Shown here piece after piece: positions 10,780 through 47,071 of a stretch of DNA of 64,000 nt (positions are counted from its first letter, which is position 1; the number at the start of each line of letters is the position of its first letter). A program made the position numbers and the translations under genes. The notes beneath the pieces are model-generated. The model was not told the origin of the DNA. It was given only the letters and a program-made list of their open reading frames with translations, and did not search any database. Source of the DNA: Amycolatopsis sp. NBC_01488 (GTDB taxonomy: Bacteria > Actinomycetota > Actinomycetes > Mycobacteriales > Pseudonocardiaceae); assembly GCF_036227105.1 (NCBI RefSeq), contig NZ_CP109434.1, positions 3,352,001 to 3,416,000 on the forward strand, read 5' to 3'.

Positions 10780-12015
10780 TCAGGCCGCGTCGGAGTCCGG
10801 GGCTCCCGGCTTCACGATCCTCGACGTCGCCCCCTGGTCCAGCAGATCCGCCACCGGCAGCGTCGCCGCTCCCGTGGCGACCGCGTCCAGGCCCAGCGAG
10901 CCCAGCTGGATCGACGTCTGGCTGAACGGGTGCCGCAGTGCGTGCTCGCCCGCCACCTCGCGGATGCGGGGCAGCAGCGACTCGCCCAGCGCCAGGCCTG
11001 CCCACCCGCCGATCACGATGCGCTCCGGGTTGAACAGGTTGATCAGGTTCGCGATCCCGGCGCCCAGGTAGCCGGCCGTCTCGTCGAGGACGCGGGCCGC
11101 CGTCTTGGACTTGGGGGCCGCCTCCAGCAGTGCCGCGAACTGGGCCTGCTCGTCCTCGCCCGGGACGTCCTTTCCGCGCATCCGGCGATACCGTGCCAGC
11201 ACTCCGCCCGCGCCGATGTACGCCTCCAGGCAGCCGCGTGCGCCGCAGCGGCAGTCGTTGCCGCCGTACGCGATCGTCGTGTGGCCCCACTCGCCCGCGC
11301 TGCTCGTCGAGCCGCGGTACGTCGTTCCGTCCGTCACCACCGCCGCGCCGACGCCCGAGCCGATCAGCGCGATCACCGCGTGCCGCGCGCCGCGGCCGGC
11401 GCCGAACCACATCTCCGCCTGGCCCTGCGTCTTCGCGCCGTTGTCGACGAACAACGGCAGACCCACGCCCGCGTCCCGCAGCAGCGAAACCAGCGGGACC
11501 GCGTCCCAGCCGACCGTCGGCGCGTGGACCAGTACCCGCGAGCCCTGCTCGACCGTGCCCGGGACGCCGATGCCGACGCCCAGCACCGCCGAGTCGTCGA
11601 TGCCCGCGCTCGCGAACACCTCGCGCAGCCCGGACGTCACCTGCTCGACCGCCGTCGCCGGGTCCGGCGCCTTCGGGAGCGGGTGCTCGACCGTCGCGAG
11701 GCGGTTCATCGCCAGGTCGAACAGCTCGACCTTGACGCCCGTCTCGCCGATGTCGACCCCCGCGACGTGCCCGTACGCCGGGTCGACGCGCAGCAGCACC
11801 CGCGGCCGGCCGCCGTCGGACTCGACCTGGCCGGCTTCGGTGATGAGCCGTTCTTCGCCCAGCTCGGCGGTCACGTTGCTGACCGTCGCCGCACTCAATC
11901 CGGTGAGCTGGCTGAGTTCGTGCCGCGACAGCGGGCCGTCGAAGTACAGTTTCGACAGCAGCAGAGAACGGTTGTGCCTCCGCAGGTCACGGACGGTGGT
12001 GCGCTTGCTCGCCAT
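10780..12015 (-). CDS. ROK family transcriptional repressor (minus-strand copy)
   Basis: This 411-residue protein has a MarR-like winged helix at about residues 10-65 (HELSQLTGLSAATVSNVTAEL) and a ROK sugar-kinase-like domain. The phosphate-binding VDIGETGVKVELFD is at about 88-100, and the zinc site comprises GHTTI (244-248) and CRCGARGC (255-262), with all Cys and His present. ROK repressors of this type bind a sugar and leave DNA. In Streptomyces the ROK repressor CsnR controls chitosanase, a useful precedent given the GH75 gene nearby. The ATG at 12015 is preferred to a TTG two codons upstream. It is divergent from a close paralogue and probably helps regulate the GH16 and ABC promoters on either side. 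Confidence 0.9.
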   Translation of the reverse strand: MASKRTTVRDLRRHNRSLLLSKLYFDGPLSRHELSQLTGLSAATVSNVTAELGEERLITEAGQVESDGGRPRVLLRVDPAYGHVAGVDIGETGVKVELFDLAMNRLATVEHPLPKAPDPATAVEQVTSGLREVFASAGIDDSAVLGVGIGVPGTVEQGSRVLVHAPTVGWDAVPLVSLLRDAGVGLPLFVDNGAKTQGQAEMWFGAGRGARHAVIALIGSGVGAAVVTDGTTYRGSTSSAGEWGHTTIAYGGNDCRCGARGCLEAYIGAGGVLARYRRMRGKDVPGEDEQAQFAALLEAAPKSKTAARVLDETAGYLGAGIANLINLFNPERIVIGGWAGLALGESLLPRIREVAGEHALRHPFSQTSIQLGSLGLDAVATGAATLPVADLLDQGATSRIVKPGAPDSDAA

Positions 12016-35128: not shown

Positions 35129-35926
35129 GTGACCGAAACCGCTCTTCAGGACGCCGTCATCGGCGCGGGGCTGCTCGCCGGTAGCGCGAACGTGATCATG
35201 CAGCTTTCTCGCGCGCCCGTCGGCTACGGCGTGCTCGAGAGCAAGGTCGACACCGGCAACCTCTTCCGCCACCCCATGAAGCGCACGCGGACCACGCTCA
35301 CCTACCTCGCCGTCGCGACGATGGGGACCGACGCCGAGCGGGCCGCCTACCGGCGCGGCGTCAACGCGGCGCACGCCCAGGTGCATTCGAGGGCCGGGAG
35401 TCCCGTCGCCTACAACGCCTTCGACACCGACCTTCAGCTGTGGGTCGCGGCCTGCCTCTACAAGGGCTTCGAAGACGTCTACCTCGCCTTCGCCGGCGGC
35501 GAGCCGACGCACTTCTACCGCGAGGCCGCGGCGCTCGGCACCACGCTGCAGGTGCGACCCGAGATGTGGCCGGCGGACCGCGAGGCGTTCGAGAGGTACT
35601 GGACCGCGGGGCTCGCCGAGGTCGGCATCGACGACACCGTCCGCCGCTATCTCACCGACGTCGTCGACCTGCGCTTCCTCCCGCCGCCGATGGCCGCGCT
35701 CGGCCGGCGGTTCAACCGGTTCGTCACGACCGGCTTCCTCCCGCAGCACTTCCGCGACGAGATGCGCCTGCCCTGGACGGCTGCCGACCAGCGCCGCTTC
35801 GAGACGCTCCTCGCGGCCATCGGCCGGGTGACGCGCGTGCTGCCCGGCCCGCTGCGGCGGTTCCCGTACAACCTCTGCCTCTGGGACCTGCGCCGCCGGC
35901 TCCGCACCGGGCGTCCGCTGGTCTGA
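35129..35926 (+). CDS. DUF2236 / MpaB-like oxygenase family protein
   Basis: The 265-residue protein shows DUF2236 features: RTTLTYLAVATMGTDAER, VNAAHAQVHSRAG with the conserved His pair, YNAFDTDLQLWVAACLYKGF and GFLPQHFRDEMRLPW. This family includes the haem-dependent latex-clearing protein and MpaB-like oxygenases. GTG 35129 is the best start because it opens the conserved region, although only a weak GAAGAG lies upstream. It may function with the BBE oxidase under LysR control; that is inference. Confidence 0.82.
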   Translation: MTETALQDAVIGAGLLAGSANVIMQLSRAPVGYGVLESKVDTGNLFRHPMKRTRTTLTYLAVATMGTDAERAAYRRGVNAAHAQVHSRAGSPVAYNAFDTDLQLWVAACLYKGFEDVYLAFAGGEPTHFYREAAALGTTLQVRPEMWPADREAFERYWTAGLAEVGIDDTVRRYLTDVVDLRFLPPPMAALGRRFNRFVTTGFLPQHFRDEMRLPWTAADQRRFETLLAAIGRVTRVLPGPLRRFPYNLCLWDLRRRLRTGRPLV

Positions 35927-36008
35927 CGCACCCCGGTTACAGTGTCGGGTCGGCACAGCTGCCCTTCTGAGAGTTGACCGCTTCGCGTGGGGGCGCGAAG
36001 GTGGGCCG

Positions 36009-36968
36009 ATGAGCGGCGACGAGGTCAGGCACGGCGTCAAGCTGAGCAGTCTCGACCAGGAGGTCTTTCCCGGTGCGGGTGCGACCAAGCGGGAGTGGCT
36101 GGACTACCTGGAAGCCGTCGCCGACCGGATGCTCCCCGAACTGCGCGACCGGCTGCTGACCGTGCTGCGGGTGCTGCGCGGGCAGGGCCCGTTCATGCAG
36201 AAGAACCTGCCGAAGTACACGCCGGACTGGGTTGAGCGGGTGTCCGTGTGGGCCGAGACGTCCAAGCGGGACGTCTCCTACGCGCTGTGCAACGACCTCC
36301 GCACGCTGATCTGGTTCGGCAACCAGCGCGCGATCGAGTTCCACACGTCGCTGTACCGCGGCGACCCGTCGCACGGGCCGACCCATCTGATCCTCGACCT
36401 CGACCCGCCCGCCGACGGGCCGTTTTCGCTGGCCATCGGCGCCGCCGGACTGGTGCGCGAAGCGCTGCGCAACGACGGGCTCGACGGCGCCGTGAAGACC
36501 AGCGGGTCCAAGGGCGTCCACGTCTTCGTGCCGCTGGCGCCGGGCCAGTCGACGGAGGACATCGCGGCGGCCACGCGGGCGGTCGCGGCGCGCGCCGAGC
36601 GCATCGACCCGTCACTGGGGACGACGGAGTTCGTCAAGGACCGTCGCGAGGGCAAGGTGTTCCTGGATTCGACGCGGGCGGGCGGCGCGACGGTGGTGTC
36701 GGTCTACAGCCCGCGTCACCGGCCGGGCGCGCCGGTGTCGTTCCCGGTCCGCTGGGCCGACCTGGACGGCGTCAAGCCGGGCGACTTCACAGTGCACACC
36801 GCTCCGGGTCTGCTCGGCGACGGCGAGGACGCGTGGACCGCGGAGATGCCGGAGCCGTTCGTGCTGCCGGCGGACCTGGTGGCGGAGGGGCACACGATCC
36901 CGATCGCCCGGGTGGTGGCGATGCACGAGGGCAAACGCCGAGCCCGTGCGGCCCGCGAGTCGGGCTAA
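36009..36968 (+). CDS. Stand-alone LigD polymerase domain (NHEJ primase-polymerase)
   Basis: The 319-residue protein matches the PolDom of bacterial LigD. The catalytic Asp pair is in LILDLDPP (D130, D132), the nucleotide-binding HTSLYRG is at 112-118, and KTSGSKGVHVFVP carries further active-site residues. It extends primers and fills gaps with ribo- or deoxynucleotides at double-strand breaks, normally with Ku and a ligase domain. No Ku or ligase gene is in this window, so it is either an accessory polymerase or works with genes elsewhere. ATG 36009 follows GGTGG. It overlaps the convergent CDP-alcohol transferase by 4 bases. Confidence 0.9.
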   Translation: MSGDEVRHGVKLSSLDQEVFPGAGATKREWLDYLEAVADRMLPELRDRLLTVLRVLRGQGPFMQKNLPKYTPDWVERVSVWAETSKRDVSYALCNDLRTLIWFGNQRAIEFHTSLYRGDPSHGPTHLILDLDPPADGPFSLAIGAAGLVREALRNDGLDGAVKTSGSKGVHVFVPLAPGQSTEDIAAATRAVAARAERIDPSLGTTEFVKDRREGKVFLDSTRAGGATVVSVYSPRHRPGAPVSFPVRWADLDGVKPGDFTVHTAPGLLGDGEDAWTAEMPEPFVLPADLVAEGHTIPIARVVAMHEGKRRARAARESG

Positions 36969-37723
36969 GCCGCCTGGTCGTGGCCGCGCCAGGCCGGGCC
37001 GTGCGGACGGCGCAGCGTCGCGCGGGTCAGCTCCACGATCCGGCCCGGCGTCTTCTCGACGCGGTGCCGGGCGAGCCACCCCGTGTCCCGGCCGAACGAC
37101 CAGACCAGCGACGCCAGCGCCGCCACCACGAAACCGAACGAAACCGCCGACGGCAGCAACCCGGAAACCGCCACCACCAGCACCACGCCCTGCACCGCGG
37201 CCACCGTCTTCCGCGCCATGCTCGGGTACAGCGGCGCCGTCAACCAGGGCAACGCCCACGAAGCCGCGACGAACGCGTAGCGCATCAAGCCGATCGCGAG
37301 CACCCACAGCCCCAGCGTCCGGGACACCTGGATGCACAGCAGGAGGATCAGGAAGGCGTCGACCTCCATGTCGAACCGCGCGCCGAACTCGGACGCCGTG
37401 CCCGTGCGGCGGGCGACCTGGCCGTCGAAGCCGTCCATCGCCAGAGCCACCGCGGCCAGCCCGACCAGCCACCAGAGCGGACTACCGCCGTCGGCGACGA
37501 GCTCGGCCACGCCGCCCACCAGTACCGCACGGGCGAACGTGATCCAGTCCGCCGGGCCGAACTTCCCGCGGCCGCTCTGCCGCAGGCCCCAGCCCGTCAG
37601 CAGCACCAGCGCTAGCCCGTAGACGGCTCCCGTGGCCCAGGCGAGCGGGGACAGGGAACCAGCCCCCGCGGCGAGTGCCCACAGCGGGACCGCCGAGCGT
37701 AGGAGAAGTCCGTTCTTGATCAT
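36965..37723 (-). CDS. CDP-alcohol phosphatidyltransferase family membrane enzyme
   Basis: The protein (252 residues) has about six membrane helices and the complete CDP-OH-P motif, DGxxARx8GxxxDxxxD. It is seen as DGQVARRTGTASEFG followed by ARFDMEVD, about residues 98-120. Members join CDP-diacylglycerol or a related CDP-lipid to an alcohol in the membrane. The acceptor is unknown. The start is 37723, divergent from the MDR dehydrogenase of the pterin-like operon. It might belong functionally to that locus, since both would act on membrane-bound precursors, but nothing proves it. Confidence 0.85.
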   Translation of the reverse strand: MIKNGLLLRSAVPLWALAAGAGSLSPLAWATGAVYGLALVLLTGWGLRQSGRGKFGPADWITFARAVLVGGVAELVADGGSPLWWLVGLAAVALAMDGFDGQVARRTGTASEFGARFDMEVDAFLILLLCIQVSRTLGLWVLAIGLMRYAFVAASWALPWLTAPLYPSMARKTVAAVQGVVLVVAVSGLLPSAVSFGFVVAALASLVWSFGRDTGWLARHRVEKTPGRIVELTRATLRRPHGPAWRGHDQAA

Positions 37724-37801
37724 CGTTTACTCCGCGAATCGGCACGGCTGCTCATAGGGTGGCGGCGACACCAGCCTCCGGTCGCCTGCAGAGGAGAACA
37801 C

Positions 37802-38764
37802 GTGGAACAGGCTTTCTGGGTTCAAAGTCCCGGCGAAGGCGCGCTCCGGCCGGTGACCTTGCCCACCCCCGGCGAGGGTGACGTCCTCGTCCGGACGCTC
37901 TGCTCCGGCGTCTCCCGCGGCACCGAAACCCTCGTCTTCCGCGGGGGCGTCCCGGTCAGCCAGCACGACGTCATGCGGGCGCCCTTCCAGGACGGCGAGT
38001 TCCCCGGGCCGGTCAAGTACGGCTACCTCAGCGTCGGCGTCGTCGAGGAGGGGCCGGACGCGCTCACGGGCCGGACGGTCTTCTGCCTCTACCCGCACCA
38101 GACCGCGTACGTCGTCCCCGCGAGCGCCGTGACGCCGGTGCCGGACGCCGTCCCGCCTGGCCGCGCGATCCTCGCCGGCACCGTCGAGACCGCGGTCAAC
38201 GCCATCTGGGACGCGAAACCGAAGCTCGGCGACCGGATCGCCGTGATCGGCGCGGGCATGGTCGGCTGCAGTGTCGCGAAGCTGCTCCAGGGCTTCCCGG
38301 CCACCCGCGTCCAGCTGATCGACGTCGACCCGTCACGCGCCGAGATCGCCGAAGCCCTCGGCGTCGACTTCTCGACCCCCGAAGCCGCAAACGGCGACTG
38401 TGACCTGGTCGTGCACGCGAGCGCCAGCGAAGCGGGCCTCGCCAGGGCGCTGGAGCTGCTCGCGCCGGAAGGCGAGGTCGTCGAGCTGTCCTGGTACGGG
38501 GACCGCCGGGTGCGTGTGCCGCTCGGCGAGAACTTCCATTCGCGGCGTCTGACGATCCGCAGCAGCCAGGTCGGGACGGTCGCGCGGCCCGACCGCGACT
38601 ACGCCCAGCGGCTCGGTCTCGCCCTCGAGCTGCTGGCCGATCCGGCGTTCGAAGCGCTGGTCAGTGGTGAGTGCAGGTTTGAAGATCTTCCGAACGTGCT
38701 ACCCAGGCTCACCGCGAATGAACTTTCCGCCCTCTGCCTCCGTGTCATGTATCAGCCGCAGTGA
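37802..38764 (+). CDS. MDR-superfamily zinc-type dehydrogenase
   Basis: This 320-residue protein has a GroES-like N-terminal half with [15 protein letters not shown] and a Rossmann domain starting at [15 protein letters not shown]. The acidic residue ending beta-2 is in LIDVDPSR. It resembles the Tdh/BchC-like branch of zinc alcohol dehydrogenases, although the structural-zinc Cys cluster is absent. GTG 37802 has a strong AGAGGAGAA sequence upstream. It is the first gene of a tight operon; PTPS, GT4, methyltransferase, LPG-type membrane protein and RibA follow. It may oxidise or reduce a side chain of the product made by the PTPS-like protein. Confidence 0.85.
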
Positions 38765-38795
38765 CCACGTCCACCCGAACGCATCGGAGGTCTTG

Positions 38796-39194
38796 GTGTT
38801 CAGCATCACCGTCCGTGACCACGTGATGGTCGCCCACAGCTTCCGCGGGGAAGTCTTCGGACCCGCGCAACGCCTGCACGGCGCGACCTTCGTGGTGGAT
38901 GCGACCTTCCGCCGCGCCGAGCTCGACGAGGACAACATCGTCGTGGACATCGGCAAGGCCACGGAAGAGCTCGGGGCGGTGCTGAGCGACCTGAACTACC
39001 GCAACCTCGACGACGAGCCGGTGTTCAAGGGCATCAACACGTCCACCGAGTACCTCGCGAAGGTCATCGCCGACCGCCTCGCCGACGCCGTCCACGCCGG
39101 ACGACTCGGCGAAGGCGCGCGCGGCCTCGAAGGCATCGCCGTCTCGCTGAAGGAATCGCACGTCGCGTGGGCGAGTTACGAGCGTGCCCTGTGA
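38796..39194 (+). CDS. 6-pyruvoyl-tetrahydropterin synthase/QueD-like protein with altered metal site
   Basis: The 132-residue protein has the PTPS/QueD fold pattern. VAHSF carries the first zinc ligand (H14) and RLHGATF the second (H28). It also has the [15 protein letters not shown] helix and a C-terminal [14 protein letters not shown]. The third ligand of the usual HGH motif is replaced by Ala (A30), and the catalytic Cys of PTPS/QueD is not at its normal place. The fold is clear but the classical reaction may not be. GTG 38796 is chosen because of the GGAGG sequence 6 bases before. Its stop overlaps the GT4 start by 4 bases. Confidence 0.83.
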
Positions 39195-40258
39195 ACTCCC
39201 TCTACGTCGTGCTGCCCGGGGACATCGACGACGCGTCGGTCCCGAGCGGCGGCAACACCTACGACCGGCGGATGTGCGATCGCCTGGTCGAGGCCGGGTT
39301 CGAGGTCCACGAGATCGCCGTCTCCGGCACCTGGCCGCGCCCGGACACCGAAGCCCGCGCGGTCCTCGGCCACCTGCTGTCCGCCCTGCCCACCGGCTCG
39401 GCGGTGCTGCTCGACGGCCTGGTCGCCTGTGGCGTGCCCGAAGTCGTCGTCCCGCAGGCGCGCCGGCTGTCGCTCTCGGTGCTGGTGCACCTGCCGCTGG
39501 CCGACGAGACGGGCCTGCCGCCCGCGCTGGCCGCCGAACTCGACGCGCTCGAGCGCGACACGCTGCAGGCCGCGAGCTCGGTCGTCGCGACCAGCGAGTG
39601 GGCCGCGCGCCGGCTGGTCGAGCACCACGGCCTCGCCTCGCACCGCGTGCACGCCGTACCGCCGGGCGTCGACCCGGCGCCCCCGGCCATCGGCACCGAC
39701 GGCATGTCCCGGCTGGTCTGCGTGGCCAACGTGACCCCGCGCAAGGGCCAAGGCGTGCTCGCGCAGGCCTTGGAAACCGTCGCCGACCTGCGCTGGACGT
39801 GCGAGTGCGTCGGCGGGATCCGGCGCGAGACGAAGTACGTCGAACGGCTGCGCGAGCACCGGCTCGGCGCCCGCTTCACCCTCACCGGCCCGCGCACCGG
39901 CGCCGCGCTGGCCGCGACTTACCACACCGCCGACCTGCTGGTGCTGCCTTCGCGCGCCGAGACCTACGGCATGGTCGTCACCGAAGCCCTCGCGCGCGGC
40001 GTGCCGGTGCTGACCACCGACGTCGACGCGCTGCCCGACACCGTCGGCGTCGCGCCGGACGGCTCGGTCCCGGGAATGCTCGTGCCCGGCGACGACGTCG
40101 AAGCGCTCGGCGCCGCCCTGCGCCGCTGGCTCACCGAGCCCGAGCTGCGGACGCGGCTGCGCGCCTCGGCGAAGCTGCGCCGCGAGACCTTGACCGGCTG
40201 GGACGACACGGCCCGCCGGATCGCCGACGTCCTGCAGCGGCAGGAGGCGGCGGCATGA
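39191..40258 (+). CDS. GT4-type glycosyltransferase
   Basis: The 355-residue GT-B enzyme has an N-terminal [15 protein letters not shown], where the GGNTYD loop takes part in acceptor binding in GT4 enzymes. The C-terminal nucleotide-sugar domain carries K185 (VTPRKGQ) and the E-x7-E motif (E257 and E265 in [16 protein letters not shown]). These residues are expected for an active retaining transferase. GTG 39191 overlaps the PTPS stop, and the stop overlaps the methyltransferase start, both by 4 bases. Donor and acceptor are unknown. A degenerate paralogue lies at 45995-47071. Confidence 0.88.
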
Positions 40259-41085
40259 CCGCGTTCGCACCGGACTGGCTGTACCTGCGGGAGCCCGCCG
40301 ACGCCGCGGCCCGCGCGGCCGAGCTCCTCGAACCGCTGCGCGCCCACCTGCCGGAAGGCGAAGACGTCGTCATCCGCGACCTCGGCTGCGGCACCGGCTC
40401 GCTCGGCCGCTGGCTGGCCGCGCGCCTGCCCGGCACCCAGCACTGGATCCTGCACGACCACGACACCGAGCTGCTGACCCGCGCCAAGGCGTCCCTGCCG
40501 GCCACCGCGCTGGACGGCAGCCCGGTCGACGTCGTCGCCGAGCAGCGCGACGTCACCGCGCTGCGGGCCGCGGACCTCGCCGGGACGTCGCTGGTCACCG
40601 CGTCCGCGCTGCTCGACCTGCTGACCAGGGACGAGGTCACGACGCTGGCCACGGCGATCGCCGAAGCGGGCTGCGCGGCGCTGCTGATGCTTTCGGTCAC
40701 CGGCGTGGTCGAGCTGTCGCCCGCCGACCCGCTCGACTCGGCCATCGCCGCCGCGTTCAACGCCCACCAGCGCCGGCTCACCGGCGGCAGGCGGCTGCTC
40801 GGCCCGAACGCGGTTGACGTCGCGGCGACGGCGTTCGGCAGGCTCGGCGCCACGGTCGTCCGCGGCCACAGCGCCTGGCGGCTCGGTCCTGACCAGGCCG
40901 AACTGCAGGCGCGGTGGCTCGAGGGCTGGGTCGGCGCCGCGGTCGAGCAACTGCCGGAGCTGCGCCCGGTCGCCGACGTCTACCTGCAGCGCCGGCTGGA
41001 AATGGCCCGGGCCGGCGAGCTGCACGCCGTGATCCACCACGGCGACCTGCTGGTCCTGCCGCCGAGCATGGAGGCTGCGGCGTGA
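40255..41085 (+). CDS. SAM-dependent methyltransferase
   Basis: The protein (276 residues) has a class I methyltransferase fold. Motif I is IRDLGCGTGSLGRWLA at about residues 40-55, the acidic loop after beta-2 is LHDHDTELL, and a later motif LVTASALLDLLTRDEV lies where motif IV is expected. The substrate is unknown. The starts and stops overlap its neighbours by 4 bases on both sides, so it is translationally coupled to the glycosyltransferase and the membrane protein. Within the operon it could methylate either the pterin-like product or the sugar. Confidence 0.87.
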   Translation: MTAFAPDWLYLREPADAAARAAELLEPLRAHLPEGEDVVIRDLGCGTGSLGRWLAARLPGTQHWILHDHDTELLTRAKASLPATALDGSPVDVVAEQRDVTALRAADLAGTSLVTASALLDLLTRDEVTTLATAIAEAGCAALLMLSVTGVVELSPADPLDSAIAAAFNAHQRRLTGGRRLLGPNAVDVAATAFGRLGATVVRGHSAWRLGPDQAELQARWLEGWVGAAVEQLPELRPVADVYLQRRLEMARAGELHAVIHHGDLLVLPPSMEAAA

Positions 41086-42101
41086 AGCGCGCACTGGCGT
41101 GGCTGCGGATCCTCGGCGCGTTCGCCATCCTCGGCGTCCTCGTCTGGCAGCTCGGCAGCGCCGCCTTCCTCGCCGGCCTCGGCCGGATCAGCGTGCCCGG
41201 CGTGCTGGCCGCCCTGGTCATCGGCTTCGCGACGACGCTGTTCAGCGCGGGCCGCTGGCAGATCGTCGCCACCCGGCTCGGCCTGCGGCTTTCGCTGCGG
41301 ACCGCGGTCGCCGACTACTACCGCGCGTTGTTCCTCAACGGCGTGCTGCCCGCGGGCGTCCTCGGCGACGTCCACCGCGCGGTGCAGCACGGCCGCGACT
41401 CGGGCGACGTCCCGCGTGGCGTGCGCGCCGTCGTCCTGGAGCGCACCGCCGGGCAGCTGGTGCTGATCGCGTCCGCGGTCGCCGTCGTGCTGGTGTCACC
41501 GGACATCGTGCCCGGGGCGTTCCGCGAGGTCGTGACGGTGACCGGGGTGGTCGTCGTGCTGGCCGCCGTCGCCGCGATCGTCGCCGGCCGGCTGTTCGGC
41601 GGGCGCTGGATCCACAGCCCGTCGAAGGTCCGCCGCGGCTTCGCCGTCACCCTCGCCGACCTGCGGCTCGGCCTGTTCACCCGCGAGACCTGGCCCGGCG
41701 TCGGCTTCCTGTCGGTCGCGACGCTGGCCGGGCACCTGGCCCTGTTCGTCGTCGCCGCCCGCGTCGCCGGGGTTGACGCGCCGGTCGGGCAGCTCGTGCC
41801 GCTGATGGTCCTCGCGCTGCTCGCGATGGGCCTCCCGCTCAACGTCGGCGGCTTCGGCCCGCGCGAAGGCGTCTGCGCCCTGCTCTTCGGCGCGGCCGGC
41901 CTGGGCGCCGCCCAAGGTGTCACCGTCGCCGTCGTCTACGGGGTGCTCACGCTCGTCGCGAGCCTGCCCGGCGCCGGTGTCCTGCTCGTCCGGAGCGTCG
42001 CCGGGTTCCGCGTGACCCGCGCTCCGCACACCGGCGTCGTGCCTGCTCCGCGCACCGCGGCCGACACCGGGATCGAATCGGAAGTGGGGTTGAAGTCATG
42101 A
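41082..42101 (+). CDS. Lysylphosphatidylglycerol synthase-type (UPF0104) membrane protein
   Basis: This 339-residue protein has eight or so membrane helices and the UPF0104/LPG_synthase_TM signatures [31 protein letters not shown] with the conserved N and P-A-G-V-x-G, and [12 protein letters not shown]. It has no aminoacyl-transferase domain, so it corresponds to the flippase-like half of MprF. Such proteins often accompany glycosyltransferases and are thought to move lipid-linked products across the membrane. GTG 41082 overlaps the methyltransferase stop by 4 bases, and the stop overlaps the ribA-like start by 4 bases. Confidence 0.87.
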
Positions 42102-42751
42102 CCGCAAGCGATGTCGTCGGGGATCTGCCGCGCCGGGCCGTGGTCGAGCGGGTCGTCGAAACCCGGCTGCCGACCCGGCACGGGACGTTCCGCGCGGTCG
42201 GCTACCTCGACCGCACCGGCACCGAGCAGGTCGCGCTGGTCCACGGCGACGTCGCCCCGCTCGGCGCGCTGGTCCGGGTGCACAGCGAATGCCTGACCGG
42301 CGACGTCTTCGGCTCGACGCACTGCGAGTGCGGCGACCAGCTGGCGGTGGCGCTGGACCGGATCGTCGAGGAGGGCTCGGGCGTGCTCGTCTACGTCCAG
42401 GGCCACGAGGGCCGCGGGATCGGCCTGCTCGCGAAGCTCGAGGCGATGCGGCTGCAGCAGGACGAGGGCCTCGACACGGTCGACGCGAACGTGGCGCAGG
42501 GCCTGCCGGTCGACGCCCGCGACTACCACGCGGCGGCGGGCATCCTGACCGACCTCGGCATCCGCTCGGTGCGGCTGCTGTCGAACAACCCTCAGAAGGT
42601 GGAACAGCTCACGCGCTACGGAATCCGGATCAGCGAGCAGGTTCCGCTGCTGGTTCCGCCGAACCCGGAGAGCCTGCGGTACCTGCGGACGAAGGCCGAG
42701 CGGATGGCCCACCTGCTGCCGCACCTGGACCAGGCGTTCTCAGGCGCCTAG
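42098..42751 (+). CDS. ribA: GTP cyclohydrolase II
   Basis: The 217-residue enzyme has intact catalytic features. [12 protein letters not shown] and HCECGDQL contain the zinc Cys65, Cys76 and Cys78, GHEGRGIGL binds GTP phosphate, and the C-terminal [12 protein letters not shown] is typical. It converts GTP to the diaminopyrimidine that begins riboflavin, and in related pathways deazaflavin, biosynthesis. No other rib gene is nearby, so it probably supplies the pyrimidine precursor of the product made by this operon. It is the last gene of the operon. Its 3' end overlaps the convergent creatininase-like gene by 12 bases. Confidence 0.92.
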
Positions 42752-43438
42752 CGCATCGAGGACGCCGGCGAAGCGCTGGACCAGCGTGTCCAGCACGACG
42801 TGCCCCTTCGCCGCGGTCGCCAGCGACGGACGGCCGACCACCCCCGACTCCGTGTACGCCCGCAGGCCCAGCGTCAGCAGGTGGTCCCGGTCGGTGACGT
42901 GGTCGGCCGTCTCGTGGCCCGGCCGGACCAGGTGCGGGTGCGCGTGCAGCAGGATCGACGTCTCCAGTTCGCCCGCGTGCATGTCGTCGTCCAGCGACGT
43001 CCGCAGCCCGGCCGCGGTGTGCGCGGCCTGCCAGTCCGGCACGCCGGGGAACAGCGCCATCGCGCCGGCGGCCTCCTGGACCACATTGGACAGTACGTAG
43101 TTGCCGCCGTGCCCGTTGACCAGCACCAGCCGCTCGACGCCGGACGCGCGCAGCGACGCGGCGACGTCGGTGACCACGGCGTGCAGCGTGCGGGCCGAGA
43201 TGCTCACCGTGCCGCGCCACGCCGCGTGCTCGTGGGAGCACGAAATGGTGATCGGCGGCAGGTGGAGCACGGGGTACGCCGCGGCGACGGCCTTCGCGAG
43301 CGTCGCCGCGATGACCGTGTCGGTCGCCAGGGGCAGGTGGGCGCCGTGCTGCTCGAAGCTGCCGACCGGCAGCACCGCGACCTCCGCGCCCCGCCGCTGC
43401 TCGTCGGCCGTCGTCGCGAGCGGGAACAGGTCGGTCAT
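42740..43438 (-). CDS. Creatininase family amidohydrolase (ArfB/MftE-like)
   Basis: The protein (232 residues) has the creatininase metal residues: [18 protein letters not shown] (E and H), NGHGGNY (H), and [15 protein letters not shown] (H, E). Family members include archaeal ArfB, which removes formyl from the formamidopyrimidine of riboflavin and F420 biosynthesis, and MftE of mycofactocin. No mycofactocin genes are here, while a GTP cyclohydrolase II gene is directly convergent. An ArfB-like step on its product is therefore attractive but unproved. The ATG at 43438 opens [13 protein letters not shown] 43444 is an alternative. Confidence 0.83.
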
Positions 43439-43466
43439 GAGCACGTCCCTTCACTAGGTTGGACTC

Positions 43467-44267
43467 ATGAGCGAGCATGCCGCACTACTCGACGTCGCGC
43501 GCGAAGCCGTGGCGAAGGCGACCGAGATCGTCCGGTCGCGCCCGGCTTTTTCCGTTTCCGCGAAAGGTGATCGCGACCTGGTGACCGACGTCGACACGGC
43601 GGTCGAGGACGCGCTGCGGGAGTTCCTCACGGCCGAGACGCCGGAGATCGGCGTCCTCGGCGAGGAGCGCGGCCGCAGCGGGGACGGCGGCGGCCGCTGG
43701 TGGGCGCTCGACCCGATCGACGGCACCGCCAACTTCGCCCGCGGGATTCCGCTCTGCGGTATTTCCCTGGCGCTGGTGGACGGCGAGCACAGCACGGTCG
43801 CCGCGATCACCCTGCCGTACCTCGGCGTCACGTACACGGCGTCGCGTGGCGAAGGTGCGTTCGCGAACGGAGAGCGTGTCGGCGCTTCGCCCGCGACGGA
43901 GATGTCGGACGCCATGATCGCCGTCGGCGACTTCGCGATCGGCCGGCTGGCCGAAGAGAAGAACGCGGCGCGCCTGCGGCTGCTTTCGGACCTCGGCGCG
44001 CGGGCGCAGAAGATCCGGATGCTCGGCACCGCGGCGATCGACCTCGCCTGGGTGGCGGACGGAAAGCTCGACGCCGCACTGATCCTGTCCAACAACCCGT
44101 GGGACACCATGGCCGGCGTGCTGCTCGTGCGCGAGGCCGGCGGGGCCGTCGTGGACCGCGACGGCAGCGAGCACACGGTCGGTTCGTCGTCGACGATCGC
44201 CGTCGGTACCGGGCTGCGCAAGGAGATCGTGGACGCACTTGATCGGGCGTACGGGGTTGTTCGTTAG
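43467..44267 (+). CDS. Inositol monophosphatase family phosphatase
   Basis: The 266-residue protein carries the IMPase metal motifs. E is in GEERGRSGDG, WWALDPIDGTANFARGIP is complete (D-P-x-D-G-T), and the C-terminal metal Asp is in NNPWDTMAGVLLVREAGG. These enzymes dephosphorylate inositol phosphate, histidinol phosphate or related sugar phosphates; the substrate here is open. In context, the phosphatase could act on a phosphorylated pyrimidine or sugar intermediate. It is divergent from the creatininase-like gene, with only 28 bases between starts. Confidence 0.87.
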   Translation: MSEHAALLDVAREAVAKATEIVRSRPAFSVSAKGDRDLVTDVDTAVEDALREFLTAETPEIGVLGEERGRSGDGGGRWWALDPIDGTANFARGIPLCGISLALVDGEHSTVAAITLPYLGVTYTASRGEGAFANGERVGASPATEMSDAMIAVGDFAIGRLAEEKNAARLRLLSDLGARAQKIRMLGTAAIDLAWVADGKLDAALILSNNPWDTMAGVLLVREAGGAVVDRDGSEHTVGSSSTIAVGTGLRKEIVDALDRAYGVVR

Positions 44268-44407
44268 GATTCCGGGTACCCGGTGGGCAGCGCCACAGTG
44301 CCCGATTGCACTGTCCGTCCAAGGTTTTCGGTTACGTTGGTACCGGCCGGCGGACGATACTGGCATGCTGGCCGGATCTCGTCGGCACACTTTGTCAAGA
44401 ATGGTGG

Positions 44408-45892
<1,485 letters not shown>

Positions 45893-45994: not shown

Positions 45995-47071
45995 ATGAGG
46001 CCCGCCGACCCGATGGTGTTCATCCTCCCGGCCGCGCCGCCGGGGAGCGACACGTACGACAAGCGCATGTGCCAGAACCTGCCCGCCGTCGGCCAGCCGG
46101 TGCTGGAGCTGCCGATGACCGGCGGCTGGCCGGAGCCGGACGCGACGGCTCGGCGTCGCCTGGCCAGATCCTTGGCCGCGTTGCCGGACCGGACGGTGGT
46201 GCTGCTCGACGGCGTGATCGCGTCGGGCGTGCCCGAGATCGTCGTCCCGCACGCGCGGCGGCTGCGGCTGGCCGTGCTGGTGCACCAGGCCCTCGCCGAC
46301 GAGCCGGGCCTCGACCCGGCGCACGCGGCGGAGCTGGACGCGTGCGAGCGCGAGACGCTGCGGATGGCCGGGATGGTCGTCGCGACCAGCCCGTGGCTCG
46401 CCCGGCTGCTGATCGACCGCCACGACCTCGACCCGGGCCGCGTCCACGTGGCCAAGCCCGGCACCGACGCGGCGCCGCTCGCCGCCGGGGCCGACGGCGT
46501 CTCCCGGCTGCTGTGCGTCGGCGACGTCACCCGCCGCAACGGCCAGGACCTGCTGGTCCAGGCCCTCGGCGAGGTCGACCACCTGGCGCTGTCGTGCGTC
46601 ATGGCCGGTTCGCTGGGCGGGGACCCGGGGTACGTCGACGAGCTGGGCTGGTCGATCGAGCGGCTCGGCCTGGGCGGTCGCATCACGCTCGCGGGCGACG
46701 CGGTGGACCTGGGCGCCGCCTACAACGCGGCCGACCTGCTGGTCATCCCGGCGCGCGCGGCGACGTCCGGCATGTTCGTCGCCCAGGCGCTGGCCCGCGG
46801 CATCCCGGTACTGGCCACCGAGGTCGGTGGGGTGTACGACGCCCTCGGCGTCGACGCGGACGGCGAGATGCCGGGCCTGCTCGTCGAGCCGAACGACCCG
46901 TTCGCACTGGCCGACGCCCTGCACCGCTGGTACGCCGACCCGGAGCTGCGCCGATCGTTGCGAACGGCGGCGCTCGGCCGCGGCAGCGCACTGGAGGAGT
47001 GGGACGTGGCAGCGCGGCGGCTGACGCAGGCGCTGTCGAGACTGGCGTCGGAGCCGCGCATCGTCGCCTGA
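45995..47071 (+). CDS. Degenerate GT4 glycosyltransferase paralogue (probable pseudo-enzyme)
   Basis: This 358-residue protein aligns along its length with the GT4 at 39191-40258. It shares SDTYDKRMC against [30 protein letters not shown] and the GIPVLATEVG region. The three residues needed to hold and activate the nucleotide sugar are changed: Lys185 becomes Asn182, and both Glu of the E-x7-E motif become Ala256 and Gln264. The GG of the acceptor loop is also lost. The fold should persist without normal transfer activity, so a regulatory or binding role is likely. ATG 45995 is used; ATG 46013 is possible. It lies between the kinase and the SLATT gene. Confidence 0.82.
   Translation: MRPADPMVFILPAAPPGSDTYDKRMCQNLPAVGQPVLELPMTGGWPEPDATARRRLARSLAALPDRTVVLLDGVIASGVPEIVVPHARRLRLAVLVHQALADEPGLDPAHAAELDACERETLRMAGMVVATSPWLARLLIDRHDLDPGRVHVAKPGTDAAPLAAGADGVSRLLCVGDVTRRNGQDLLVQALGEVDHLALSCVMAGSLGGDPGYVDELGWSIERLGLGGRITLAGDAVDLGAAYNAADLLVIPARAATSGMFVAQALARGIPVLATEVGGVYDALGVDADGEMPGLLVEPNDPFALADALHRWYADPELRRSLRTAALGRGSALEEWDVAARRLTQALSRLASEPRIVA

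Follow-up and report, generated by a model that had tools for sequence, protein, structure and literature searches.

The window analysed here is a stretch of 64,000 nucleotides from the 9.5-Mb chromosome of Amycolatopsis sp. NBC_01488 (contig NZ_CP109434.1, positions 3,352,001 to 3,416,000). It carries a compact cluster in which genes for a variant GTP cyclohydrolase II (GCH2) and for a member of the 6-pyruvoyl-tetrahydropterin synthase (PTPS) family lie among genes of sugar transfer, methylation and membrane type. Specifically, six genes follow one another on the forward strand: an MDR-superfamily dehydrogenase (37802..38764; PF00107, 28.4 bits, under the curated cut-off of 31.8), a PTPS-IV type protein orthologous to SCO6650 of PDB entry 3d7j (38796..39194; PF01242), a GT4-family glycosyltransferase (39191..40258; PF00534/PF13692), an S-adenosylmethionine-dependent methyltransferase (40255..41085; PF13649), an LPG_synthase_TM or flippase-like membrane protein (41082..42101; PF03706, 2e-30) and the GCH2 variant (42098..42751; PF00925, 1.5e-64, 217 bits). 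The gene identities proposed in the initial annotation of this DNA hold by Pfam, for the dehydrogenase only through the sub-cut-off PF00107 match. Five overlaps had been claimed; with the starts of the PTPS, GT4 and flippase genes picked by us from the overlaps, we counted four exact 4-base overlaps (PTPS/GT4, GT4/methyltransferase, methyltransferase/flippase and flippase/GCH2), the dehydrogenase and PTPS genes being 31 bases apart.

A gene for a creatininase-family amidohydrolase (42740..43444; PF02633, 1.3e-61) adjoins the GCH2 gene, as had been noted, but on the opposite strand, with a 12-base overlap of the two 3' ends (42740-42751). An inositol-monophosphatase-family phosphatase gene (IMPase; 43467..44267, forward strand; PF00459), present in a minority of relatives, begins 22 bases past the creatininase gene start. 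Given this strand arrangement, the two genes are not a simple continuation of the operon, although both lie directly next in line. In addition, the gene set first described omitted a divergent gene for a CDP-alcohol phosphatidyltransferase (CDPOH; 36965..37723, reverse strand; PF01066, 9e-14), located 78 bases upstream of the dehydrogenase gene, and the link to a RibD_C-type reductase presented below.

The window PTPS protein matches those of four Amycolatopsis at 94-99%. A search at E <= 1e-15 recovered it from 140 of 249 genomes of the same family and from 57 of 394 genomes of the same class; at the threshold applied to the phylum (E <= 1e-8), 52 of 396 genomes gave matches, the weaker of which are not necessarily of this type. 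Gene content and order were compared in two sets of PTPS loci, namely a diversity set of 80 loci hand-picked for diversity and a Streptomyces-rich set consisting of the best 80 of at least 573 loci, mostly from Streptomyces. Three records of the second set duplicate loci of the first (L105=L018, L143=L023, L159=L029). In the diversity and Streptomyces-rich loci, respectively, we found the MDR gene in 77/80 and 80/80, GT4 in 77/80 and 77/80, the flippase-like gene in 65/80 and 77/80, CDPOH in 63/80 and 78/80, the methyltransferase in 60/80 and 79/80, GCH2 in 48/80 and 71/80, a RibD_C reductase in 41/80 and 18/80, the creatininase in 39/80 and 67/80, and IMPase in 9/80 and 7/80. In each set, 76 of the 80 loci (152/160 in all) have PTPS and GT4 as immediate neighbours on the same strand, GT4 is followed by the methyltransferase in 54/80 and 70/80 loci, and CDPOH adjoins MDR in 51/80 and 78/80 (129/160). 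The recurrence of these adjacencies indicates that the arrangement is not due to chance. The initial annotation had staked its proposal on conservation of gene order in relatives; the order is conserved, hence the unit is real, and presence and adjacency across the 160 loci establish the gene set as a conserved unit. We rejected IMPase as a core member, since it occurs in only 16 of 160 loci, though always close to GCH2: in all 16 it lies within 1 kb, which bears out the proposed tie of a phosphatase to the cyclohydrolase.

These counts also bear on the idea of two pathways lying side by side, one making a GTP-derived molecule (GCH2, creatininase, RibD_C, PTPS and MDR) and the other an unrelated glycolipid or head-group (CDPOH, GT4, methyltransferase and flippase). 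The membrane genes could serve any lipid, and some relatives have CDPOH fusions, with either a sulfatase-like region or a methyltransferase as partner, as such a division would allow. The two supposed halves are nevertheless interleaved, GT4 adjoining PTPS on the same strand and CDPOH adjoining MDR at the frequencies given above, and we regard the division as improbable. In conclusion, the comparison of neighbourhoods argues that the gene set very probably serves a single pathway.

The window GCH2 shares the family match and the zinc Cys triad, intact in 123/123 aligned rows, with RibA enzymes that form diamino-ribosylamino-pyrimidinone phosphate (APy), but it lacks their catalytic Tyr, whose position in solved RibA proteins aligns with Met117 (codon at 42446..42448). 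The catalytic Tyr of GCH2 has a role in deformylation. We scored this residue and the presence of the creatininase in 161 loci (the window, the 80 diversity and the 80 Streptomyces-rich loci, short loci included). A non-Tyr GCH2, with Met, His, Gln or Leu, was present in 103 of them, window included, and the creatininase accompanied it in 103/103; a Tyr GCH2 was present in 17 loci, with the creatininase in 0/17, and among the 41 loci without GCH2 four had the creatininase. With duplicates removed the figures become 101/101, 0/17 and 3/40 (Fisher p 7e-21 for non-Tyr versus Tyr distinct loci, uncorrected for kinship), and the diversity set alone gives 36/36, 0/12 and 3/32.

The loci that hold a creatininase with no GCH2 in the fetched cluster were traced individually. 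In L079 (genome G951) a GCH2 of the Leu type sits at the border of the stretch, and L021 (G435) has a His-type GCH2 elsewhere in the genome. In L018 (Sciscionella, G469; 10992-11591) the creatininase is decayed, with 200 residues, an internal deletion and a changed end; its cluster is without GCH2, and of the two GCH2 matches in that genome the one whose motif was read is of the Tyr type. Altogether, 31 genomes without GCH2 in the cluster gave 49 GCH2 matches, and 28 of the 30 motifs read carry Tyr, the others being those of G951 and G435. In a genome-wide search of 65 genomes, close creatininase matches (>270 bits) appeared only in the window genome (G000), G435, G951, G517, G440 and, degraded, G469, the remaining genomes giving matches of <136 bits or none; no close creatininase was found in the 11 of 11 genomes with a Tyr-type cluster. 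The same agreement was seen on a core-gene tree built from MDR and PTPS, with 97 rows (the window, 76 of 80 diversity loci and 20 of 80 Streptomyces-rich loci; L020, L074, L087 and L090 omitted). L018, whose creatininase is degraded, was left unscored, and L079 and L021 were entered as non-Tyr on the basis of their GCH2 outside the fetched cluster. In the 96 scored rows, creatininase presence and non-Tyr GCH2 agree in 96/96, with 13 changes each on the best tree.

Such a coupling is what would be expected if the cyclohydrolase stopped at the formylated form of APy (FAPy) and the creatininase removed the formyl group. In the neighbourhoods compared, GCH2 thus appears to have lost half its job wherever the creatininase adjoins it.

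Since GCH2 and RibD_C are riboflavin-type enzymes, the cluster could also be read as housekeeping riboflavin genes with chance neighbours. The window genome has three GCH2 genes, of which the two further ones are Tyr-type, and the cluster gene is accordingly not the only RibA, a distinction on which the initial annotation had also made its proposal hang. Furthermore, the gene order is conserved together with genes foreign to riboflavin synthesis. A search for RNA elements gave no Rfam match at E <= 1 in window positions 35900-45000, and none at gathering score in seven relatives' loci or around the RibBA-like gene that this genome carries (L181); the missing riboswitch says little, because that RibBA-like region is itself without an Rfam match. 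On the strength of the two further Tyr GCH2 genes and the conserved order we rejected housekeeping riboflavin synthesis, which we consider extremely improbable.

In the cluster creatininase, E31, H33, D42 and H112 are kept in 108/108 rows, as is the Glu of a HAGE motif; the first four align with positions that we take to be metal ligands in creatininase. The initial annotation had called the protein ArfB-like. Its coupling to non-Tyr GCH2 makes a FAPy deformylase of this kind probable, although the match to the ArfB family falls short of the cut-off. An MftE-like peptidase was also considered and set aside, the score lying under the cut-off and the presence of the gene tracking the GCH2 residue instead. 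According to PMC9478397, ArfB deformylates FAPy in archaea, and BrbF is an alpha-proteobacterial FAPy formamidase of the creatininase family that was first annotated as a creatininase; this was the only paper found in a literature search for creatininase together with GTP cyclohydrolase II. BrbF can be likened to the cluster enzyme by family and predicted substrate only, as a bacterial creatininase-family protein acting on FAPy, and it serves riboflavin, unlike the role proposed for the cluster creatininase (PMC9478397).

The PTPS protein matches the SCO6650 structure sequence (3d7j) at 2.8e-68 and 231.5 bits by phmmer. It carries FGPAQ at residues 22-26 (numbered from 38793), and HGA in place of HGH, which identify it as PTPS-IV. 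Canonical PTPS uses a catalytic Cys, an Asp-His pair and three zinc-binding His. Here Ala takes the place of the catalytic Cys in 159 of the 160 rows with a residue at that position, and of the third zinc His in 155 of 160; Glu 86 and Glu 121 are kept in 161/161 rows, and the Asp-His of a canonical chain (2g64) aligns with Asn-Tyr. The distant members L088, L089 and L091 retain HGH but not the Cys. In view of these losses we rejected canonical 6-pyruvoyl-tetrahydropterin synthase chemistry, and because the Cys and a zinc His are gone, the PTPS-like rearrangement formerly proposed is doubtful. PTPS-IV likely catalyses some other reaction, with a pterin-like compound or a pyrimidine as its substrate; in the literature searched we found no assigned reaction. 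In the part of PMC5445326 consulted, PTPS-IV is described as a subfamily of COG0720 in which FGPAQ replaces the C(x)nHGH motif, and its neighbourhood, in a cluster of 561 sequences, includes PF00925 and PF01872; a search of its main text for the string 'creatinin' gave 0 occurrences, and neither the creatininase link nor the Tyr/non-Tyr switch was found there.

The same residue counts weigh on a biopterin-glucoside-like scheme, in which PTPS would act on dihydroneopterin triphosphate from GTP cyclohydrolase I, the MDR protein would work like sepiapterin reductase, GT4 would glycosylate the pterin, and GCH2 and creatininase would form a side branch. Cyanobacterial pterin glucosides offer a precedent, and the likeness extends to PTPS, a reductase and a glycosyltransferase, but the cyanobacterial route employs a canonical PTPS fed by GTP cyclohydrolase I, without GCH2, creatininase or lipid genes. 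No part of the set is better conserved than the core of PTPS, dehydrogenase and GT4 (77/80 diversity loci for MDR and likewise for GT4); this core also occurs in L088, L089 and L091, loci that showed no GCH2, and in L089 a dihydroneopterin aldolase gene (FolB) adjoins the RibD_C gene. On the other side stand the loss of the Cys and the zinc His in nearly all PTPS rows, and Pfam scans of the cluster and part of the neighbouring proteins, which gave no GTP cyclohydrolase I, with GCH2 and RibD_C recurring. On balance, this scheme seems to us rather unlikely.

The reductase that recurs is a stand-alone RibD_C protein (PF01872) encoded in the clusters of many relatives. Its best solved matches, ahead of RibD proteins, are 5xux and its kin (named 'Conserved protein'), the former presumably an archaeal reductase, and 6p8c, named 2,5-diamino-6-ribosylamino-4(3H)-pyrimidinone 5'-phosphate reductase. 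In the window genome the RibD_C homolog lies outside the cluster, with 54% identity and a deaminase domain behind the reductase. RibD_C matches of at least 130 bits, a line drawn after the scores had been seen, were present in 33 of 38 PTPS-bearing genomes, picked mostly for lack of a close local RibD_C, compared with 7 of 26 PTPS-free genomes (Fisher 1.4e-6, uncorrected for kinship). Together with the position of IMPase near GCH2, these data fit a ribityl-pyrimidine that undergoes dephosphorylation. Two side observations concern the same protein. In L083 (10314-12334) a GCH2-RibD_C fusion protein is encoded near the PTPS-IV core and followed by a HAD phosphatase. The order RibD_C then C-terminal deaminase is found in L179 (9147-10235, window genome) and in L273 (7942-9069, G023, a genome of the group that we assign to Streptomyces); the usual RibD domain order is the reverse.

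GCH2, RibD_C and a deaminase would yield the precursor of FO, and section 7 of PMC5041015 remarks, with reference to unpublished work, that PTPS-IV is involved in F420 synthesis of archaea; the cluster might then supply a ribityl-pyrimidine precursor for cofactor F420. However, cofH scores over the cut-off in 24 of 26 PTPS-free and in 32 of 38 PTPS-bearing genomes, so that its distribution shows no co-occurrence with PTPS and lends no support to an F420 role in actinobacteria; four genomes (G539, G008, G886 and G957) have the core genes and no cofH match. A role in F420/FO supply is disfavoured, and we hold it to be very improbable. In addition, we know of no place in F420 synthesis for GT4, the methyltransferase, CDPOH or the flippase.

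For the genes that would act later, structure and sequence comparisons gave hints of different precision. The predicted fold of the MDR protein (mean predicted local distance difference test, pLDDT, 90.7) matches MDR alcohol dehydrogenases, the best being 4cpd (TM 0.77), and that of the methyltransferase (pLDDT 94.5) matches generic methyltransferases; these fold searches gave matches at superfamily level, with no hint of the substrate. By sequence, the solved relatives of GT4 include Tll1590, an inositol-3-phosphate glycosyltransferase, PimA and further phosphatidylinositol mannosyltransferases; several of these enzymes transfer sugars to inositol compounds or to lipids. The CDPOH motif D..DG..AR.{8}G...D...D, which we take to be the active site, is present in the window and in 141/142 rows. 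In L049, L054, L066, L043 and L081, CDPOH stands in one frame with a membrane region of about 500 residues or a methyltransferase, the fused region being weakly sulfatase-like in L049 and L043 and a methyltransferase in L081. L088 and L089 have an acyltransferase gene close to the core. The GT4 relatives, the intact CDPOH motif, the fusions and the nearby acyltransferase suggest a lipid-linked product, which we nonetheless put forward as a tentative possibility, on the doubtful side.

Putting these elements together, we propose the following route. The Met117 GCH2 would open GTP and release pyrophosphate, leaving the formyl group in place to give FAPy, which the creatininase would deformylate to APy; these two steps are highly probable in the light of the residue-creatininase coupling. 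Relatives with a Tyr cyclohydrolase would make APy directly, consistent with the lack of a creatininase in their loci. An ArfC-like RibD_C reductase, which many relatives encode within the cluster and the window genome at another site, would then produce the ribityl form, a step that we somewhat favour, and IMPase or HAD enzymes may remove the phosphate. For the chemistry after the pyrimidine stage, and for export, we infer more freely: PTPS-IV and MDR might make a pterin-like or related heterocycle from the pyrimidine, GT4 could add a sugar and the methyltransferase a methyl group, and CDPOH and the flippase-like protein might link the product to a lipid phosphate, carry it through the membrane, or both. 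That the product is glycosylated and methylated seems moderately probable. Our best guess for the end product is a ribityl-pyrimidine or pterin that bears methyl and sugar groups and is perhaps also linked to lipid and flipped.

The opening of this route runs parallel to that of archaeal riboflavin and F420 synthesis (GTP cyclohydrolase III, ArfB and ArfC), with the same predicted order of a FAPy former, a creatininase-family deformylase and a RibD_C-type reductase. It differs in that the FAPy former is a changed bacterial GCH2, not GTP cyclohydrolase III, that the product is presumably not riboflavin, and that the creatininase lies far under the ArfB family cut-off. The closest likeness for the PTPS protein is the SCO6650-SCO6655 region of Streptomyces coelicolor, by the match to SCO6650 given above; the GCH2 homolog SCO6655 of that region is said to have the same Tyr-to-Met change and reportedly forms FAPy. 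SCO6652 and SCO6655 also appear in expression tables (PMC3610822, PMC2853524), from which we draw no conclusion. Gene order varies within the group: in this Amycolatopsis the creatininase comes after GCH2, with IMPase beside it, and in Streptomyces loci such as L096 and L097 it comes before GCH2. As to novelty, the initial annotation had described the operon as undescribed. Its parts are known, both from the SCO6650 structure and from the PTPS-IV subfamily of COG0720, likened to our protein by FGPAQ and by the PF00925/PF01872 neighbourhood (PMC5445326), but the pathway and its product have no assignment in the literature searched: judged by titles and passages, none of the papers listed describes either.

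Several observations weigh against the proposed route and are gathered here. As regards the creatininase, the Glu beside the fourth ligand in creatininase (NGHYEN) is Gly in our protein (NGHGGN), the ArfB score (NF033501) is 38.5 bits, far under the cut-off of 180, and the MftE score (TIGR03964) is higher than that for ArfB, at 132.1 bits for a cut-off of 172. As regards the reductase, it is encoded only in the 41 diversity and 18 Streptomyces-rich loci counted above, 18 of these 59 at <=45% identity, and the RibD_C homologs of the window genome and of G023 carry a deaminase domain, a feature to be expected of a riboflavin enzyme. The coupling itself is less than a perfect rule, since G517 and G440 hold close creatininases outside a PTPS cluster (L263 and L265, respectively); no non-Tyr GCH2 was seen in G517, and G440 is without PTPS. 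Moreover, only three independent pairs fall on well-supported branches of the core-gene tree, below significance in a sign test. In the GCH2 tree the non-Tyr enzymes group on one side (support 92/82), the Tyr enzymes of the clusters appearing in three places, and the non-Tyr enzymes are probably of single origin; the Fisher p of 7e-21 is therefore inflated by kinship, and a single origin of the non-Tyr module, with several exchanges for Tyr enzymes, may underlie the pattern. Finally, a Tyr-type GCH2 of the window genome would give APy directly, which leaves the retained detour through FAPy without explanation.

The two creatininases outside PTPS clusters (L263, 6353-7063; L265, 9511-10230) are 59% identical to that of the window. 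The one in L263 adjoins a phage integrase gene and the one in L265 a gene with a weak helix-turn-helix match, and they are perhaps a mobile-element version. Elsewhere in the window, a stand-alone LigD polymerase-domain-like gene (36009-36968), matched by models of non-homologous end joining ligases and overlapping the end of CDPOH by 4 bases, is probably unrelated to the cluster. A second GT4 gene (45995-47071), which shares 51% identity with that of the cluster across 339 positions, lies 3.2 kb past GCH2 behind a gene judged by eye to be Ser/Thr kinase-like, and is also found in the same-genus relatives L012 and L013.

In conclusion, our data argue, with fair though not strong confidence, for a conserved actinobacterial pathway that starts from GTP, stands apart from housekeeping riboflavin synthesis and leads up to a glycosylated product. 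The outline of the route first sketched from this DNA was right; the residue-creatininase coupling now lends support to its opening, and its PTPS-like rearrangement is doubtful. A bolder version, in which the archaeal three-enzyme route has been copied in bacteria, rebuilt from a broken GCH2, and feeds synthesis of a membrane-anchored natural product, a methylated and glycosylated ribityl-pyrimidine or pterin that CDPOH would join to lipid phosphate and that would be flipped, strikes us as possible but unlikely. We are aware of no such pterin or pyrimidine lipid; were this version true, the membrane-anchored product might serve as a redox or light-absorbing lipid of the outer leaflet.

The PTPS-IV group is widespread, as its presence in 140 of 249 family genomes attests. 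The Tyr/creatininase switch points to a possible feedstock of the pathway, offers direct assays for two of its enzymes and makes the role of PTPS-IV testable in laboratory Streptomyces. If the product proved to be a pterin or pyrimidine glycolipid, it would represent a new class of membrane molecule in a bacterial group known for its antibiotics.

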